DNA of 64,000 bases from Actinomadura barringtoniae (GTDB taxonomy: Bacteria; Actinomycetota; Actinomycetes; Streptosporangiales; Streptosporangiaceae), in assembly GCF_017573505.1 (NCBI RefSeq), contig NZ_JAGEOJ010000008.1, positions 248,001 to 312,000 on the forward strand, written 5' to 3'. Position 1 is the stretch's first letter. Each line of letters opens with the position of its first letter. Below, piece after piece: positions 36,979 to 46,511 of this stretch. The translations under genes were made by a program, and so were the position numbers. The notes under the pieces were generated by a model that was not told the origin of the DNA, did no database searches, and saw nothing but the letters and a program-made list of their open reading frames with translations.

Positions 36979-38214
36979 TCATGACAGGCGGGCGGCCTGG
37001 GCGTTCAGGTAGCGCTCCTGCGGGAGGCTGGCCGTGCGCCGGGCCGCCTCCTGGTAGGCCGCACGGGCCGCGGCCGGGTCGCCCGACATCTCCAGCAGGT
37101 GCGCCCGAACGGCGTGGAGGCGATGATCGCTCGCGAGGCGTTCGTCGGCGGCCAGGTCGTCCAGCAGGACCAGGCCCGCGGCCGGGCCGTTCACCATCGC
37201 CGCGGCGACCGCGTGGTTCAGCCGTACGACGGGGTTGTCGTCGATGCGCAGCAGCAGCCCGTACAGCGCCATGATCTGCGGCCAGTCGGTCTCGGCCGAC
37301 GACGGCGCCTCGTCGTGCACCGCGGCGATCGCCGCCTGGAGCTGGTACGGGCCGGGCTCGCCGCGCGGCAGCACCTCGCTGATGAGGGTGATCCCCTCGG
37401 CGATCTGCTCGGCGTTCCACAGCGCGCGGTCCTGCTCGGCCATCGGGACGAGCGCGCCGTCCGGGCCGGTGCGCGCCGGGCGCCGCGCGTCGGTCAGCAG
37501 CATCAGCGCCAGCAGGCCCGCGACCTCGCCGTCGCCCGGCAGCAGGCGGCGAACGAGCCGGGCCAGCCGGATCGCCTCCGCCGACAACTCGGTGCGGGCG
37601 AGGTCGGGCCCGGACGTGGCGGCGTAGCCCTCGTTGAAGACCAGGTACAGCACGTGCAGGACGGCGCCGAGGCGTTCGGCGTGGCCCGGGGGCAGGCCGA
37701 ACGGGACGCCGCTCTCCTTCACCGCCCGCTTGGCCCGCGTGATCCGCCGCGTCATCGTCGCCTCGGGCACCAGGAACGCGCGGGCGATCTCCGCCGTGCT
37801 CAGGCCGCCGACGGCGCGCAGCGTGAGCGCGATCTGCGACGCGGCCGACAGGGCCGGATGGCAGCACATGAACAGCAGGATCAGCGTGTCATCGGAGTCG
37901 GCGGTCTCAGCGGCCCCTGCCGCGGCGTCGGGCAGCTCACGCCACGCGGCGACGGTGTCCTCGCGCCGCCGCCGGGCCTGGTCGGCGCGCAGCAGGTCGG
38001 TGAGGCGGCGGGAGGCGACCTTCACCAGCCAGCCGCGCGGATTCTCCGGAACACCGTCGCGCGGCCACTGCACGGCCGCCGCCAGCAGCGCCTCCTGCAC
38101 GGCGTCCTCGGCGAGGTCGAAATGCCCGTACCGCCGCACGAGCGCGCCGAGGACCTGCGGCGCCAGCTCGCGCAGCAGATCCTCGGCACGTCCGGCGGCG
38201 TCGGGCGTGGTCAC
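36979..38214 (-). CDS. ECF42-type sigma factor with C-terminal TPR-like extension
   Basis: 411 residues. Sigma region 2 (LGALVRRYGHFDLAEDAVQEALLAAAVQWPRDGVPENPRGWLVKVASRRLTDLLR in sequence) and region 4 (ALTLRAVGGLSTAEIARAFLVPEATMTRRITRAKRAV), then a long helical DUF6596/TPR-like domain ending LERAGDPAAARAAYQEAARR-type repeat. This size and layout define the ECF42 group, which is genetically linked to DGPF/YciI proteins, as here. GTG 38214 overlaps the stop of the YciI gene (GTGA). No anti-sigma gene; control is thought to be through the C-terminal extension. Confidence 0.9.
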   Translation of the reverse strand: MTTPDAAGRAEDLLRELAPQVLGALVRRYGHFDLAEDAVQEALLAAAVQWPRDGVPENPRGWLVKVASRRLTDLLRADQARRRREDTVAAWRELPDAAAGAAETADSDDTLILLFMCCHPALSAASQIALTLRAVGGLSTAEIARAFLVPEATMTRRITRAKRAVKESGVPFGLPPGHAERLGAVLHVLYLVFNEGYAATSGPDLARTELSAEAIRLARLVRRLLPGDGEVAGLLALMLLTDARRPARTGPDGALVPMAEQDRALWNAEQIAEGITLISEVLPRGEPGPYQLQAAIAAVHDEAPSSAETDWPQIMALYGLLLRIDDNPVVRLNHAVAAAMVNGPAAGLVLLDDLAADERLASDHRLHAVRAHLLEMSGDPAAARAAYQEAARRTASLPQERYLNAQAARLS

Positions 38215-38627
38215 TCCAGTTCGTCCATGGACCCGACGCAGGGCCGCACGTCCACGTACCACTCGCGTCCGAGGTCCAGGCCCTCGGGATGCGGGGTGTC
38301 GGCGAGCTTGGCGGCGATCTCGGTCGCGCGGTCGAAGCTGGCGCAGTCGACGATCGTGTACCCGGCGAGGACCTCCTGGGTCTCGGCGTACGGACCGTCG
38401 GTCACCACCGGCACGCCGTCGCGCAGCCGGATCCGCCGCGCGTGGACGGGCGCGGTCAGGCCCTGCGCGTCGACGAACTCCCCCGACTCGACCAGGTCGT
38501 TGTTCCACTTGGTCATGAACGCGTGGAGCGCTTCCAGGTCCTCGGGCTTGAACGCGACGCCGTCGCCCTTCCCGGCGAGCATGTCGAAGTCGCGCTGCGA
38601 GCCGACCATCATGATCATGTACTTCAC
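38211..38627 (-). CDS. YciI/DGPF-domain protein, ECF42 partner
   Basis: 138 residues from GTG 38627 (AAAGGAGG upstream). YciI-like dimeric ferredoxin-type fold: KYMIMMVGSQRDFDML and the signature VTDGPYAETQEVLAGY, where the usual DGPF is DGPY. Such proteins are encoded with ECF42 sigma factors and are probable members of the sigma regulon with unknown activity. The stop overlaps the sigma-factor start. Confidence 0.9.
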   Translation of the reverse strand: MKYMIMMVGSQRDFDMLAGKGDGVAFKPEDLEALHAFMTKWNNDLVESGEFVDAQGLTAPVHARRIRLRDGVPVVTDGPYAETQEVLAGYTIVDCASFDRATEIAAKLADTPHPEGLDLGREWYVDVRPCVGSMDELE

Positions 38628-40706: not shown

Positions 40707-41528
40707 ATGTTCGTGAGACGTGTGCTGGCCTGCGCCACCCTCGCGGTGGCGGCGGCCTCCGGGTCGGTGACCGCGCGTGCCGCGGCCTATCCCGACCCGC
40801 CGCCCGACCCGACCGTTCCGAAGAACGGCGGGCTCTACGTCGCCAAGGGCGGTGTGGCCGAGATCCATTTCGCGCCGAGCTTCACCGCGAAGATCAAGCA
40901 GCTGCACGCCAAGCTCCGCTACATCTCGCCCTGGTACGCGCTGCCCGGCGGCGCCGACACCGGGTTCGGCATGCCGGTCGGGTCCGACCGCGACACCTTC
41001 ACCGACCCGAACCGGATCACCTACCCGGGCGGCCTCGCCATCACCGACTACAAGGGCAACACCGGCGCCATCAACGGCGTGTGGCTACGGCTCGCGCCCG
41101 GCGGCTTCTTCGCCGTTCCCTGGGTGAACGGCAAGCGCCTGGAGGGCGAGAAGTACCTGCTGTCGTTCAGCGTCCTGGAGGCGTTCGCCAAGCTCAAGGA
41201 GCACGGCGGCGGCTTCGGCCCGAAGGGGCTGAGCCTGTACGCGACCGGCGACCTGTCGCAGCTGATCGACTCCTACGCCGAGGTCCCGGCGGGCACCGGC
41301 GCGACCAAGCCGTACGTCAAGGCCGGCGAGCCGGTCGGCGTCATCAACGTCGCCTGGAAGGACAAGGCGAACGCCCAGCAGGCCGCGAACGCCGCGCAGC
41401 AGGCCCTGCAGTCCGTGCAGTCGGGGCAGTCGGGGCAGTCGGGGCAGTCGGGGCAGTCGGGGCAGTCGGGGCAGAACGGGCAGGCCGCGCCGGACGGGCA
41501 GCCCGGCACGGCGCCGTCGCACCGCTGA
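40707..41528 (+). CDS. Secreted protein of unknown function with Ser-Gly-Gln repeat tail
   Basis: 273 residues. Signal peptide MFVRRVLACATLAVAAASGS then ARA-AA; AAGGAG five bases before the ATG. A unique 180-residue globular part (GGLYVAKGGVAEIHFAPSF, RYISPWYALPGGADTGFGMPVGSDRD, VWLRLAPGGFFAVPWVNGK) with no recognised family. Then an Ala/Gln-rich linker, six Ser-Gly-Gln units and a Pro-rich end. Not a lipoprotein (no lipobox). Likely an exported or wall-associated protein. Confidence 0.75.
   Translation: MFVRRVLACATLAVAAASGSVTARAAAYPDPPPDPTVPKNGGLYVAKGGVAEIHFAPSFTAKIKQLHAKLRYISPWYALPGGADTGFGMPVGSDRDTFTDPNRITYPGGLAITDYKGNTGAINGVWLRLAPGGFFAVPWVNGKRLEGEKYLLSFSVLEAFAKLKEHGGGFGPKGLSLYATGDLSQLIDSYAEVPAGTGATKPYVKAGEPVGVINVAWKDKANAQQAANAAQQALQSVQSGQSGQSGQSGQSGQSGQNGQAAPDGQPGTAPSHR
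41418..41471 (+). repeat. Six-copy 9-bp tandem repeat CAGTCGGGG
   Basis: In-frame nonamer repeat encoding Gln-Ser-Gly near the end of the secreted protein. Copies are identical at the base level, indicating recent slippage or expansion. Confidence 0.88.
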
Positions 41529-41610: not shown

Positions 41611-41631
41611 ACGATCATCTGTTGTGATCGT
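41611..41631 (+). promoter_or_regulatory. Inverted repeat ACGATCA-N7-TGATCGT upstream of TPR-NicO-DUF4331 operon
   Basis: Perfect seven-base arms, seven-base spacer, 30 bases before the TPR gene start. A second, looser pair TGGGAGT (41544-41550) and ACTCCCA (41575-41581) lies upstream. The 21-base repeat is the best candidate operator for the operon; it does not match the NikR or Nur consensus as I know them. Confidence 0.5.
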
Positions 41632-41661
41632 TCGCACCGAGTCCGTCCGGGGACCGCGACC

Positions 41662-42963
41662 ATGAAGAAGGCGCTGGTAGTGGCCGGAACGGCCGCCACC
41701 GGAGCGGTGGGCCTCGCCCTGCTCGCCCCGGTCGGCCTGTTCGCCCGCGAGCACGTGTCCCCGACCGCCCGCCCGTACGACCTGAGCAGCGTGCCGGTGC
41801 AGATCGGACGCGCCCAGACCTACCTGCGGCAGCGGCCCTCGGACGCCCGCGTCTGGGCGGAGCTCGGCAGCGACTACGTCGAGCAGGCCCGGCTGTCCGG
41901 CGATCCCGTCTACTACGCCAAGGCCGGCGGGGCCCTGCGGCGTTCGCTGAGCCTCGATCCGCACCGCAACACCGACGCGTTCATCGGCATGGGCGCCCTC
42001 GCCGTCGCGCAGCACCGCTTCGCGGCGGGCGAGCGGCTGGCGCGCACGGCCCAGCGCCTGGACCCGCACCGCTGGTCGGCGTACGGCGTCCTCGGCGACG
42101 CCGCGATCGAGCTGGGCGACTATCGCGGCGCCGAACGGCTGCTGGAACGCATGCTGCAACTGCGTCCCGGCGTCGCGTCCTTCACCCGCGCCGCGCATCT
42201 GCTGGAGCTGAAGGGCGACACCCGCAAGGCCTTCGACGCCCTGCACCGCGCGGCCCACACCGCCGCGACGCCCCAGGACGTGTCGTACTGCCACTTCCGG
42301 CTCGGCGAGCTGTCCTGGAACACCGGCCGTACGGCCCAGGCCCTCGACGAGTACGGCCGCGCGCTCAACGCCACGCCCGGCAACCCCTACGCGCTGGCAG
42401 GCCAGGCCAGAGCCGAGGCCGCGGTCGGACGCACCGACGAGGCCGTCGCCGACTACACCAAGGCGACGTCCCGCCTCCCCTCACCCCAGTTCCTCCTTGA
42501 GCTGGGCGAACTCCAGCTGGCCCGCCACCAGCCCCAAGAGGCCGCGCGGCAATTCGAACTCCTGGCCGCCCAGGAGCGCATCCTGCACGCCAAGGGCGTC
42601 GTCGACGACCTGACCATCGGCCGGTACGAGGCCGATCACGGCGATCCCCGTTCGGCCGTACGGCACCTGAAGGCCGAATGGGACCGCCGCCAGACCGTGG
42701 ACGTCGCCGACGCGCTCGCCTGGGCTCTGCACCGCGCCGGCAAGGACCGCGACGCCCTGGTCCGCGCCCGCTGGTCGATGCGGCTCGGCGGCCGTACGGC
42801 ACCTCAGGTGTTCCACCTGGGCGAGATCGAGCGCTCCCTCCGGATGCGCGCCGCCGCGGCCCGCCACCTCCGCCAGGCCCTCGCCATCAACCCCGCGTTC
42901 TCGCCGCTCTATGCCGACCAGGCCAGGCAGGACCTCTCGGGTTCCGGGAGTTCCGCCCGATGA
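41662..42963 (+). CDS. Membrane-anchored TPR protein of the NicO-DUF4331 operon
   Basis: 433 residues: an N-terminal membrane anchor or uncleaved signal (KKALVVAGTAATGAVGLALLAPVGLF), then about nine to ten tetratricopeptide repeats of roughly 34 residues (ARVWAELGSDYVEQARLSGD, AYGVLGDAAIELGDYRGAERLLERML, LGELSWNTGRTAQALDEYGRAL). TPRs are scaffolds for protein binding, here on the outer face of the membrane. Its TGA stop overlaps the ATG of the NicO gene at 42960. Probably assembles the exported DUF4331 protein or the transporter. Confidence 0.85.
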   Translation: MKKALVVAGTAATGAVGLALLAPVGLFAREHVSPTARPYDLSSVPVQIGRAQTYLRQRPSDARVWAELGSDYVEQARLSGDPVYYAKAGGALRRSLSLDPHRNTDAFIGMGALAVAQHRFAAGERLARTAQRLDPHRWSAYGVLGDAAIELGDYRGAERLLERMLQLRPGVASFTRAAHLLELKGDTRKAFDALHRAAHTAATPQDVSYCHFRLGELSWNTGRTAQALDEYGRALNATPGNPYALAGQARAEAAVGRTDEAVADYTKATSRLPSPQFLLELGELQLARHQPQEAARQFELLAAQERILHAKGVVDDLTIGRYEADHGDPRSAVRHLKAEWDRRQTVDVADALAWALHRAGKDRDALVRARWSMRLGGRTAPQVFHLGEIERSLRMRAAAARHLRQALAINPAFSPLYADQARQDLSGSGSSAR

Positions 42964-44267
42964 TCGTTCCCGCGGTGCCGCCCGCCGTCGTGGCCCATCC
43001 GCTCGGGAACTTCAGCGTCAACCACTACGACGGCCTCCAGATCGGCCGCGACCGCATCGTGGACAACGCGATCGTCGACTTCGCCGAGATCCCGACCCTG
43101 CAAGACGACGCCGTGGCGAGCGACGACCCCGCCGCCATCTGCACGGAACTCTCCCGATCGCTCCGCGCCTCCGCGGCAGGCCGCCCGCTCACCTTCCGTA
43201 CGGGCCGCAGCGCCCTCACCTACCGCCCCGGCGCAGCGGGCCTGCGCACCAGCCGCGTGACCTGCGAGCTGACCGCCCCAGCCCACATCGACGACCGGAC
43301 GAACCTCACCTTCACCAACGCCTTCCGCGCCGACCGAGTCGGCTGGCGCGAGATCACCGCCACCGCCGTGGACGTCCGCCTCACAGCCTCGACCGCGCCC
43401 GGCACCAGTGTCTCCAAGCAGCTCATGTCCTACCCCCGCGACCTGCTCGGCTCGCCCCTGGACGAACGTTCGGCCCGCATCACCGCAGAGCCCGGCCACT
43501 CCACCGCCGCAGCCCCGGCCCACGCCCTCCCCGCCGCCAACGACCTGGAACGCCTCACCGGCCCGGCCGCCCACAGCCTCGACGACATCATCGGCGCCAA
43601 CCGCGTCACCCCGCTGATGGCCGGACTGGCGCTCCTCCTGGCAACGGCCCTGGGCGCCGCGCACGCGCTCCTCCCCGGACACGGGAAGACCGTGATGGCG
43701 ACCTACCTGGCAGCCCGCCAAGGCCGCCCCCGCGACGCCGCCATCGTCGGCGCCACCGTCACCCTCACCCACACAGCCGGAGTCCTGCTCATAGGTCTCC
43801 TCCTCACCCTCTCCTCCCTGGCCGGAGACTCGGTAGTCCAGTGGCTGGGAGTGGCGTCCGGAGCCCTCATCGCCGCCGTAGGCGCCGCCCTCCTGACCTC
43901 AGCCCGCCGCCGACGCCACCAGCACACCCACGGCCACACCCACACCCACACCCACACCCATCGAGCAAACCTCCTAGGCCTGGGCATAGCCGGCGGCCTG
44001 GTCCCAAGCCCGTCCGCCCTGGTTGTCCTCCTAGGAGCCGTAGCGCTGGGCCGCACCGCATTCGGCGTCGCCGCAGTCGTCTCCTACGGCGCCGGGATGG
44101 CCGCGACCCTCACCGCCGCAGGCCTGCTCGTCCTCCGCGTCCGCAGCACAGTCAAGCTGGGCCACCACGCCCGCAAACTCGGCCCGTACGGCGCGTTGCT
44201 GACCGGCGGGCTGATCCTGCTGGCCGGTACCGCGATCGCCGCCCGCAATCTCGGCGCACTGCTCTGA
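42960..44267 (+). CDS. NicO-type nickel/cobalt transporter with extracytoplasmic N-terminal domain
   Basis: 435 residues. Residues 1-200 are a soluble domain (VVAHPLGNFSVNHYDGLQI; FTNAFRADRVGWREI) that follows a weak signal segment. Residues about 215-435 are the NicO/RcnA membrane domain with LGAAHALLPGHGKTVMATYLAA, VTLTHTAGVLLIGL and GGLVPSPSALVVLLGAVALGR. A His/Thr loop (HTHGHTHTHTHTH) lies between spans, as in RcnA exporters. Expected to move Ni2+ or Co2+. ATG 42960 overlaps the TPR stop. Confidence 0.87.
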   Translation: MIVPAVPPAVVAHPLGNFSVNHYDGLQIGRDRIVDNAIVDFAEIPTLQDDAVASDDPAAICTELSRSLRASAAGRPLTFRTGRSALTYRPGAAGLRTSRVTCELTAPAHIDDRTNLTFTNAFRADRVGWREITATAVDVRLTASTAPGTSVSKQLMSYPRDLLGSPLDERSARITAEPGHSTAAAPAHALPAANDLERLTGPAAHSLDDIIGANRVTPLMAGLALLLATALGAAHALLPGHGKTVMATYLAARQGRPRDAAIVGATVTLTHTAGVLLIGLLLTLSSLAGDSVVQWLGVASGALIAAVGAALLTSARRRRHQHTHGHTHTHTHTHRANLLGLGIAGGLVPSPSALVVLLGAVALGRTAFGVAAVVSYGAGMAATLTAAGLLVLRVRSTVKLGHHARKLGPYGALLTGGLILLAGTAIAARNLGALL

Positions 44268-44289
44268 ACGCCCACCGATCGGGGAGACC

Positions 44290-45594
44290 ATGAAGGTTCT
44301 GCTGACCTCCACCATCGCCTGCGCGACCGCCGCGTCCGCCCTCACCGCCGGACTCCTTGCCGGACCGGGCATCGAGATCAGCCAGGCGTCCAGCCACGTC
44401 GACGCACCCCGCCTCATCGCCGACCCGCAGATGGACGGCTCGGACCTCTATGCCCACACCTGCCCCGACGACCCCGCCTCGGTCTGCCTCATCGCCGACT
44501 ACACCCCCGCCCAGCACGGCGCAGGACGCCCGTTCGCCGACGACGCCCGCTACGAGATCCACATCGACCAGAACGGCGACGGCGCCCCCGACCTCACCTA
44601 CCGCTGGACCTTCGAGAAGCCCGACGCCCGCGACGCCCAGCACTACACGCTGGAAGAGATCCCCAAGGGCGCCAAGCCCCGCACCCTCATCACCAACGCC
44701 GTCGCGCCCCTCTCCCGCTACGGCGCCGCCGAGGCCCGAGCCGCAGCCGTCGAGCACCTCCCCGGCGGCGGTCGCACTCTCGCGTTCAAGGCCGCCGACC
44801 CGTTCTTCAGCAACTCCAACATCGTCGGCCTAGCCCTAACTGGCACCACCCTCGTCCCGCCCATCGACCTCATCCAGGCTCTCAACGGCAACGTCAACGC
44901 CCTGGCGCTCCAGATCCCCAAGTCCCACCTGGCCCTCAAGGGCGACCCGACCCGCAACCCGGTCATCGGCGTCTCAACGACAGCCGCCCGCCGCACCATG
45001 ACCCTCGACAAATCACCCGAGACCTACCCGCAGATGTCCCGCCTCGGCAACCCGTCCGTGGACGTCCTCACCTTCTTCTCCATGGGCGAGCAGATCAACT
45101 CGATGTCCGCTTCCCAGATCGCCCGCGACCACGCCTTCGCCAAGTTCGTCACCGAGCCCGGCGCCCCCAAGCTCATCGCAGGCCAGCACTACGGTTTCGA
45201 GGTCCCCCAGACCCCCCGCAAGGACCTCTGGCAGACCTACCTGACCGGCATCGCCAAGTCCACCGGCCCGATCCAGCGCGACCTCAACTCCCCCACCCTC
45301 AACCGCGACGCCGACCCCGACCAGATCGTCCCCGCCGACGAACTCCGCCTCAACATGACCACCCCGCCCACCCCCAGCCCCAACCGCTTCGGCCTCCTGG
45401 AGAACGACCCCCAAGGCTTCCCCAACGGCCGCCGCATCAACGACGACATCCAGACCAGCCTGGTTCGCATGCTCATGGGCGAGCCCCTCACCGACGGCGC
45501 CCCCAGCCTCGTCATGGGCCAGAACAACCAGGTCACCGGCCCCAAAGAACCAGTAACCCGCCAGTTCCCCTACCTAGCAGTCCCCCACGCCTGA
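44290..45594 (+). CDS. Secreted DUF4331 protein
   Basis: 434 residues. N-terminal signal (KVLLTSTIACATAASALTAGLLA), then the DUF4331 hallmark SSHVDAPRLIADPQMDGSDLYAH close to the mature start, FEIHI-type strand (RYEIHIDQNGDGAPDLTYRW) and a long C-terminal region ending PYLAVPHA. The family has no settled function; the many Asp/His positions suggest metal or ion binding. GGGGAG precedes ATG 44290. Third gene of the TPR-NicO-DUF4331 operon. The 3' end overlaps the convergent LLM gene by 25 bases. Confidence 0.88.
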   Translation: MKVLLTSTIACATAASALTAGLLAGPGIEISQASSHVDAPRLIADPQMDGSDLYAHTCPDDPASVCLIADYTPAQHGAGRPFADDARYEIHIDQNGDGAPDLTYRWTFEKPDARDAQHYTLEEIPKGAKPRTLITNAVAPLSRYGAAEARAAAVEHLPGGGRTLAFKAADPFFSNSNIVGLALTGTTLVPPIDLIQALNGNVNALALQIPKSHLALKGDPTRNPVIGVSTTAARRTMTLDKSPETYPQMSRLGNPSVDVLTFFSMGEQINSMSASQIARDHAFAKFVTEPGAPKLIAGQHYGFEVPQTPRKDLWQTYLTGIAKSTGPIQRDLNSPTLNRDADPDQIVPADELRLNMTTPPTPSPNRFGLLENDPQGFPNGRRINDDIQTSLVRMLMGEPLTDGAPSLVMGQNNQVTGPKEPVTRQFPYLAVPHA

Positions 45595-46511
45595 CCAACC
45601 ACCGCCGCCAACCGCTCCAGCACATCGACAGCGCTGACCAGATCATCCGCCACAGGCGTCACCAGCACATGGTCAGCGCCCGCATCCAGATGCTCACCGA
45701 CCCGCCGCGCGATCGCCTCCTCATCACCCCAGGCCCGCGTGGCGTCCAGCAGCCGATCACCACGCCCGGCGATCTCGTCCTCGCTGTACCCGAGCCGCCG
45801 GAAGTTGTCCGCGTACGCCTTCACCTGCACGCCCTGAGCAACGCCCTCCCGCAGCTTCGCGCGCGCCACCGCCGGATCCGTCTCCAGCAGCACGGACAGC
45901 TGAGGAATCAGCAGCTTGTCCGCCCCAAGGATCTCCCGCGCGAACGCGGTGTGCTCCACGGGGGTGTTGAACGGATGCGCGCCGTCCGCCCGATCGCGCG
46001 CGAGCTCGAGCATCTTGGGGCCCAGCGCCGCGAGCACACGTGGGAACGGCACGGTCGGGACGGTCGCCGCGCCGGGCCTGGCAGGCACCCCCGCGTCCAT
46101 CTCGTCGAGGTAGCGCCGCATCGTGCTCAGCGGCCGCCAGTCGGTCGCGCCGGCCAGCTCGGCCTGGAAAGGGTGCCCCACCCCGATGCCGAGCACGAAC
46201 CGTCCCGGATAGGCCTCGGCCAGCGTGGCGCCGCCCGCCTGCATCGTGACGCCGGGGCGCGCCCACACGTTGGCGATCCCGGTCCCGACCACGATCCGCT
46301 CCGTCGCGGCCAGGTAGCTGCCGTACTCGGCGAACGCCTCCCGTCCGCCGATCGTCTCGCCCGCCCACACCGACCCGTACCCCAGCGCCTCGATCCGCGC
46401 CAGCTCGCGCCGCGTCACCTCGATCGGCGCGACTCCGTACCGCGCCTTCATCAGCCACACGCCCACCCGCCCAAGCCGCCGCCGAGCGTCGCCCACCACG
46501 TCGTCCACCAT
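45570..46511 (-). CDS. LLM-class F420-dependent oxidoreductase
   Basis: 313 residues. Luciferase-like TIM barrel of the TIGR03620-like actinobacterial group: YGSVWAGETIGGREAFAEYGSYLAATERIVVGTGIANVWARP, YPGRFVLGIGVGHPFQ, DGAHPFNTPVEHTAFAREILG, ADHVLVTPVADDL. Predicted to transfer hydride to or from coenzyme F420. AAGGGAT lies six bases before ATG 46511. Divergent from a TetR gene with two repeated operators between them. Confidence 0.88.
   Translation of the reverse strand: MVDDVVGDARRRLGRVGVWLMKARYGVAPIEVTRRELARIEALGYGSVWAGETIGGREAFAEYGSYLAATERIVVGTGIANVWARPGVTMQAGGATLAEAYPGRFVLGIGVGHPFQAELAGATDWRPLSTMRRYLDEMDAGVPARPGAATVPTVPFPRVLAALGPKMLELARDRADGAHPFNTPVEHTAFAREILGADKLLIPQLSVLLETDPAVARAKLREGVAQGVQVKAYADNFRRLGYSEDEIAGRGDRLLDATRAWGDEEAIARRVGEHLDAGADHVLVTPVADDLVSAVDVLERLAAVVGQAWGTAR

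Follow-up and report, generated by a model that had tools for sequence, protein, structure and literature searches.

How copper and nickel get into bacteria across the envelope is only partly understood. Human Ctr1 and albumin are examples of proteins with an amino-terminal copper- and nickel-binding (ATCUN) site. In the accessible parts of two accounts, such a site is a free NH2-X-X-His that binds Cu(II) and Ni(II) (PMC12509749; PMC7701195). Permeases with an exterior domain that begins with histidine have been in print since 2025 as the anglerases. According to the accessible part of that account, Ang-1 and Ang-2 use His1 to bind copper and are joined to HupE/UreJ-2 permeases, with copper Kd values of 73.6 nM and 62.3 nM for two domains and a nickel value of 220 nM for Ang-1 (PMC12537917). 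In a 64,000-nucleotide stretch of the Actinomadura barringtoniae genome (contig NZ_JAGEOJ010000008.1, positions 248,001 to 312,000; hereafter the window), a gene for an exported DUF4331 protein follows genes for a tetratricopeptide repeat (TPR) protein and a NicO-like permease. We put at about even the chance that this trio is a cell-surface unit that captures and transfers a transition metal, with copper or nickel as the likeliest. With somewhat less confidence than that, we suggest that DUF4331 is a widespread ATCUN family whose processed NH2-X-X-His end has survived three or more switches between export and cytosol. Its exported form would be the outer catcher of a relay that runs from the ATCUN site by way of the TPR protein and the His1 domain to an interchangeable permease.

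The first-pass annotation of the window had described three genes with tight or overlapping joints, and their coordinates agree (Table 1). The ATG of the permease gene at 42960 overlaps the TGA of the TPR gene at 42961-42963 in a 4-base ATGA, and a gap of 22 bp separates the permease and DUF4331 genes. The trio lies on a single contig (C74) of an 11.7 Mb assembly in 75 contigs. The DUF4331 assignment is clear, at 268 bits against a gathering cut-off of 27 and over positions 1-421 of 421 (Pfam PF14224).

The window DUF4331 has a histidine at the third position past its predicted processing site (SQA/SSH, the slash marking the site). The same histidine is present in all 111 readable N-termini of profile-found members, 87 exported ([AG]/X-X-H) and 24 cytosolic. 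It is the sole invariant position. Position 1 is Ser in 93 and Ala in 18, position 2 is Ser in 81, Asp in 15, His in 10 and Asn in 5, and the triplets are SSH (77), ADH (10), SHH (9), SDH (5), ASH (4), ANH (3), SNH (2) and AHH (1). The residue before the site in the exported members is Ala in 84 and Gly in three. Variable first and second positions with an invariant third are the tolerance expected of an ATCUN site, and we regard the X-X-His end of DUF4331 as a candidate ATCUN-type, copper- or nickel-chelating end. As a rough background, His stands at +3 in 4/216 and at +1 in 3/216 other open reading frames (ORFs) with a signal-peptide-like start, a set drawn by a crude regular expression. An N-terminal-nucleophile enzyme was considered as a general role for DUF4331 and rejected, given the Ala at position 1 in 18/111.

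The N-terminal count covers 112 loci (L061-L090, L214-L266 and L310-L338), with L242 truncated where its contig ends. L091-L170, for which the retrieval patterns included ASSHREAP, were left out of it, and the unfetched places of the same searches are mostly fragments or repeats, with one below the cut-off and carrying a stop (G140). An N-terminus was read as [SATG]-x-His near the profile start and non-matching members were listed as unread, which left only L242. Rows L087, L264, L266 and L322 were placed by eye and L214, L217, L240, L337 and L338 by hand.

In exported members the conserved block starts exactly past a signal-peptidase-type site (A/SSHREAP and variants). In cytosolic members it directly follows the start codon (M/SSHREAP, M/SHH, M/SNH, M/SDH, M/ADH), an assignment that uses inferred start codons, some read as Val (GTG), and a stop codon often lies only a few codons upstream. 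Related pairs display this switch: G/ADHLDAP (L259) against M/ADHLDAP (L255, L257, L260), and RA/ADHNDP (L337) against M/ADHNDP (L338). The exported L259 has TPR and NicO genes and its cytosolic kin L255, L257 and L260 do not; the cytosolic L338 has a TPR neighbor. On a DUF4331 tree of 136 rows the label exported or cytosolic changes four times, and at least three changes are forced by starred branches; this tree is of a quick kind, with five labels set by hand, L177_b left out and a long-branch warning for the window copy, L259 and L182. We also observed a large cytosolic class (L105, L109, L118, L152 and others) that starts with M/SSHREAP and has no conserved partner that we could see.

TPR protein, permease and exported DUF4331 form a conserved gene set in several phyla. 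The first-pass annotation had named a lack of conserved co-occurrence as a refutation, and the counts clearly show the opposite. TPR and NicO genes accompany 24/25 canonical exported DUF4331 regions of relatives (L061-L085), the exception being an 8.2-kb contig (L070), and neither accompanies the five cytosolic members L086-L090. Among 80 named loci of a broad collection the arrangements are DUF4331-TPR-NicO (35), DUF4331-TPR (12), TPR-DUF4331 (2), NicO-DUF4331-TPR (1) and DUF4331 alone (30). A TPR neighbor occurs at 41/42 exported, 0/24 cytosolic and 9/14 unsorted loci of these 80. The TPR-permease-DUF4331 order of the window recurs in L065, L229 and L315. Of the genomes sampled, 48 of 246 from the window's phylum carry DUF4331, as do 26 of 149 from a second phylum (that of L101, Luteitalea). 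The NicO permease with the exterior domain is in 31 of the 246, and DUF4331 is in 30 of these 31 vs. 18 of the other 215 (Fisher 6.5e-25, uncorrected for kinship). Such permease genes lie within about 10 kb of DUF4331 or a DUF4331 fragment in 28 of 35 cases, and of the seven others three begin less than 600 bases from a contig start. The stretches of 36 exported members from the 246-genome sample (L214-L253) hold a TPR gene in 31 and a NicO gene in 23; in the second phylum TPR accompanies 18/24 exported DUF4331 genes. The regional counts, here the 24/25, 28/35, 31 and 23 of 36, and 18/24, were read off neighbor tables. In the TPR protein itself, His118 and Phe120 are invariant in 9/9 aligned relatives from several phyla. 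One genome (G005, contig C1) holds two near-identical operons in opposite orientation, at 0.85 and 8.60 Mb of 9.62 Mb (L071 and L072).

The first-pass annotation had called the permease a NicO transporter, which holds only at the superfamily level. The window permease has no match to Pfam NicO (PF03824) at E up to 0.1, where only DsbD_2 appears (20 bits, cut-off 24.9), and none to HupE/UreJ-2 (PF13795) at E ≤ 0.1, a family that proteobacterial relatives in its slot do match. Among curated models it comes closest to PRK10019 of NCBIfam, of RcnA type, with 59 bits where the cut-off is 195. Relatives fall on either side of the Pfam NicO cut-off of 27.7, L170 at 21.8 and, in the same slot, the Nostoc L182 at 44.3. 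The His-rich loop that had been pointed out is there, and so is the extra exterior domain, although at about 168 rather than 200 residues in the structure model (pLDDT 77, pTM 0.48), in which residues 1-168 are mostly beta structure. The exterior domain would begin, past the predicted cleavage, with His-Pro-Leu-Gly, a known metal-chelating kind of end. HPLG[NKD] is present in 86/86 NicO matches that reach the model start (of 92 matches in the fetched loci). Ala stands directly before HPLG in 76 of the 84 in which that residue was measured. This count rests on profile matches and not on the rows of the permease alignment (A3), which were picked by an HPLGN-type pattern that 33/34 listed rows had, so that their invariant start is partly a matter of selection. 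In the HupE-type ORFs, a His follows Ala or Gly in 11/11 of those listed, read by eye.

The permease slot accepts NicO-like or HupE/UreJ_2 types. Marinobacter, Lichenicola, Pseudoalteromonas and comamonad plasmids carry a HupE_UreJ_2 permease (Pfam) in this slot, and Nostoc (L182) has a NicO protein there beside a TPR protein. The plasmid records are a hand-picked 15 of 37 found. The Pseudoalteromonas set comprises a sigma factor, an RskA-type anti-sigma factor, DUF4331, an Ig-like protein, TPR and HupE/UreJ_2. Two distant, short cytosolic DUF4331 genes of rhizobia adjoin NicO-family (NiCoT) and HupE_UreJ permeases. No such permease gene is in the listed stretches of Sulfitobacter L174 and L185, Paracoccus L183 and the short Streptomyces L180 and L181. 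On the plasmids of L174, L183 and L185 type II secretion genes adjoin DUF4331, and in L183 and L185 an A24 peptidase gene is next to it, as if the protein were secreted by a system of its own. On an Adhaeribacter plasmid (L175) DUF4331-TPR and a gene for a TonB-dependent receptor point away from each other, and the presence of this receptor again hints at metal uptake.

The window trio is a fast-diverging second copy that has kept its motifs and lacks sigma/RskA-type control. Another DUF4331 in the same genome (L061) scores 508 bits and has TPR and NicO genes beside it. The window DUF4331 sits on a long branch (2.01), is without about 20-25 residues around the TFLYN segment and reads SSHVDAP in place of SSHREAP. 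It has no C-terminal membrane tail, which is likewise absent in its near relatives L068 and L072. Both N-terminal motifs, His3 of DUF4331 and His1 of the permease, are retained.

Many of the operons adjoin an extracytoplasmic function (ECF) sigma factor, often together with an RskA-type anti-sigma factor, and this pair probably controls them. Across 105 regions a sigma gene of one type is present in 51 and an RskA-like gene in 37; RskA_C matched in three anti-sigma factors scanned. Within the set of 80 named loci, the sigma gene is at 26/42 exported, 4/24 cytosolic and 4/14 unsorted members. A promoter-like motif, C[AC]ATCC-N15-18-CG[AT]A[TA], precedes 35/127 exported vs. 2/46 cytosolic DUF4331 genes, at a density over all loci of 0.006 per 340 bases. 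It was written after viewing 13 upstream regions, which hold seven of the 35 matches, and the other 28 are among the remaining 114 exported loci. In 32/35 exported genes it lies 188-208 bases before the mature-start codon (the printed value plus the 60 bases that the scan skipped). We take the motif to resemble the mycobacterial SigK consensus. That consensus was not found in the accessible part of a SigK-RskA account (PMC7509140). The window has no SigK-like motif on either strand, whereas the motif is present at L061, which has the sigma gene and no RskA match. Among the 10 window ORFs scanned, none beside the trio is an ECF sigma factor of this type or an RskA anti-sigma factor, and the sole sigma gene (36979-38508) is of the DUF6596 type, unlike those of L136 and L061. 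A serine/threonine protein kinase gene is near the operon in 24/105 regions (L136 11921-13558, + strand, and 23 other loci).

A surface metal-handling role, as the first-pass annotation had suggested, is supported by inference from the conserved X-X-His of DUF4331, the His1 of the permease and the different nickel-type permeases found beside DUF4331. In the scheme we infer, cleavage would leave exported DUF4331 with an NH2-Ser-X-His end that binds Cu2+ or Ni2+ on the outer side of the membrane. The partners may be held together by the membrane-anchored TPR protein, the metal could be handed to His1 of the anglerase-like exterior domain, and it would then pass through the permease, with uptake slightly preferred over efflux. 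The adjacent ECF sigma/RskA-type pair would be the control of the operon in many members. If true, this offers testable chemistry for a widespread domain, and the anglerase idea gains a partner outside the cell as well as a candidate scaffold and a candidate regulator.

Several results weigh against this scheme. Only the small-residue rule was used to predict where cleavage occurs. The signal sequence of the window permease is only 12 residues, equally short in L128 and mostly longer elsewhere, which makes export of the exterior domain less certain. The structural likeness of that domain to Ang-1 is faint: Foldseek gives no match at E ≤ 0.001 and ranks copper-bound Ang-1 (9GCE) third as a weak match (probability 1.00, E 3.6e-3, TM by target 0.47), behind two DeCLIC channel chains. 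VIA returned Z scores of 7.9 for apo ZrgA, 7.7 for Ang-1 (133 residues, 4.0 Å, 14% identity), 7.6 for zinc-bound ZrgA and 6.6 for the next, all below 8, where the tool warns that a score may reflect mere common arrangement. A PDB search with a profile built on the permease sequence did not find Ang-1 and gave only weak matches, mostly in the His-rich part. In the second phylum a NicO- or HupE-type permease is near only 10/24 exported DUF4331 genes (again from neighbor tables), and a TPR neighbor at 2/5 cytosolic loci means that a TPR gene does not strictly go with export. A permease is near only 1/43 cytosolic DUF4331 loci (one NiCoT; six permease queries). Since 24/111 members are cytosolic, DUF4331 must also act without a permease partner. 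On summary inspection, the 41 ORFs listed as most widely shared at cytosolic loci looked like DUF4331 or frames over it. The SSHREAP block conserved in the main clade is also longer than an ATCUN site needs.

This last point suits a structural or protein-partner-binding role of X-X-His in a system not mainly related to metal, since the conservation of SSHREAP runs over seven residues. Family-wide, however, position 3 is the only invariant one, with four residues (S, D, H, N) accepted at position 2 and two (S, A) at position 1, residues 1-7 have no confident placement in the DUF4331 structure model, and the partners are nickel-type permeases; we find this explanation quite improbable. DUF4331 could instead be a metalloenzyme or redox protein, with the permease and TPR protein as its metal-delivery and assembly factors and the permease as the source of the metal loaded at the DUF4331 N-terminus. 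At about 400 residues, with many invariant ones distant from the N-terminus, the protein exceeds what plain metal catching would require. There are cytosolic members that lack the permease, and the Sulfitobacter and Paracoccus members stand beside type II secretion genes. Yet no enzyme fold was recognized, as Foldseek gave no match at E ≤ 0.001, the best VIA Z was about 6 to Ig domains and uninformative, and no PDB match was found by sequence. The His1 domain of the permease itself, moreover, suggests capture from outside, and a metalloenzyme seems rather unlikely.

We also think it unlikely that the trio serves efflux or buffering under stress, in which case the permease would export metal as RcnA does and DUF4331 would bind it outside, stopping re-entry. 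The nearest curated permease model is indeed an RcnA-type efflux transporter, if below its cut-off, ECF sigma/anti-sigma control suits stress, and, with the model helices read in order, the His-rich loop would lie opposite the exterior domain. A domain for capture at the outer mouth better suits uptake, however, and the slot also holds HupE/UreJ_2 permeases, a relative of which, HupE, imports nickel according to the accessible part of the anglerase account (PMC12537917). We retain capture and transfer as the preferred reading of the trio.

An inverted repeat upstream of the trio had been reported as perfect, and ACGATCA-N7-TGATCGT at 41611-41631 does match exactly between its arms. A meaning for it finds no support, and we do not count it in the system. 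When the 133 bp upstream are shuffled by dinucleotides, 176/1000 shuffles contain one or more perfect 7-bp inverted repeats with a spacer of up to 20. The window as a whole has 271 of them (0.56 per 133 bp), and none is in the approximately 160 bp upstream of L065, L068, L071 and L072, four of the nearest relatives. As a candidate operator the repeat was rejected on its chance-level frequency and its absence upstream of these relatives. The acidic DQNGDGAPD stretch of the window DUF4331 is EF-hand-like in appearance, and we presume it to be a possible calcium site. Next to the trio, 40707-41528 (+) encodes a predicted exported protein with a Gln-Ser-Gly repeat run (Pfam Collagen at 18 bits, below cut-off). 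A luciferase-like monooxygenase gene at 45570-46511 (-) is convergent with the DUF4331 gene and shares 25 bases with the end of the latter.

Table 1. Features of the TPR, permease and DUF4331 locus, in positions of the window.
Feature	Position	Strand	Remarks and basis
Perfect 7-7-7 inverted repeat	41611..41631	.	Chance level, outside the system
TPR protein gene	41662..42963	+	433 aa, N-terminal hydrophobic segment; Pfam TPR repeats
NicO-like permease gene	42960..44267	+	435 aa
Permease signal sequence, 12 residues, MIVPAVPPAVVA	42960..42995	+	Predicted, cleavage inferred
Exterior domain, mature start His1-Pro-Leu-Gly-Asn-Phe	42996..43499	+	Sequence, model
Helical membrane core	43563..44261	+	Model helices 190-422 of mature protein
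His-rich loop HQHTHGHTHTHTHTH, 8 His in 15 residues	43917..43961	+	Sequence
Exported DUF4331 gene	44290..45594	+	434 aa; Pfam DUF4331
DUF4331 signal peptide, ending ...SQA	44290..44388	+	Predicted, cleavage inferred
Ser-Ser-His, predicted mature N-terminus (ATCUN-type NH2-X-X-His)	44389..44397	+	Sequence
Acidic DQNGDGAPD stretch	44566..44592	+	Sequence

The names DUF4331 and PF14224 were not found in the literature searched, nor was the combination of a NicO version with an ATCUN-ended DUF4331, TPR and ECF sigma/RskA, in a search that left most subscription journals uncovered. The locus has likenesses to several described systems. With RcnA/NicO transporters the permease shares a membrane core with the HALxPGHGKT motif and the His-rich loop, and it differs from them in its sub-cut-off scores, its exterior domain and its operon with DUF4331 and TPR. 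Like mycobacterial SigK-RskA in the accessible part of its account, many canonical operons have adjacent ECF sigma and RskA_C anti-sigma genes (PMC7509140); the gene content is different, and the window copy has neither the sigma/RskA genes nor the motif. DUF4331 resembles ATCUN proteins in the His3 of its predicted processed N-terminus. Unlike the known ones, it would be a large folded bacterial family with the motif in both exported and cytosolic members. The closest likeness is to the anglerases, with which the permease shares a predicted signal peptide, a mature N-terminal His, a beta-structured exterior domain and a nickel-type membrane part. The exterior domain also shares with Ang-1 the structural neighbor ZrgA, the same entry whose zinc-binding form 8F1B is named as the nearest fold of Ang-1 in the accessible part of the anglerase account (PMC12537917). 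Unlike the anglerases, the permease here is NicO/RcnA-like and its likeness to Ang-1 is undetectable by profile. Its gene stands with TPR and DUF4331 genes, which the accessible part of that account does not mention (PMC12537917).

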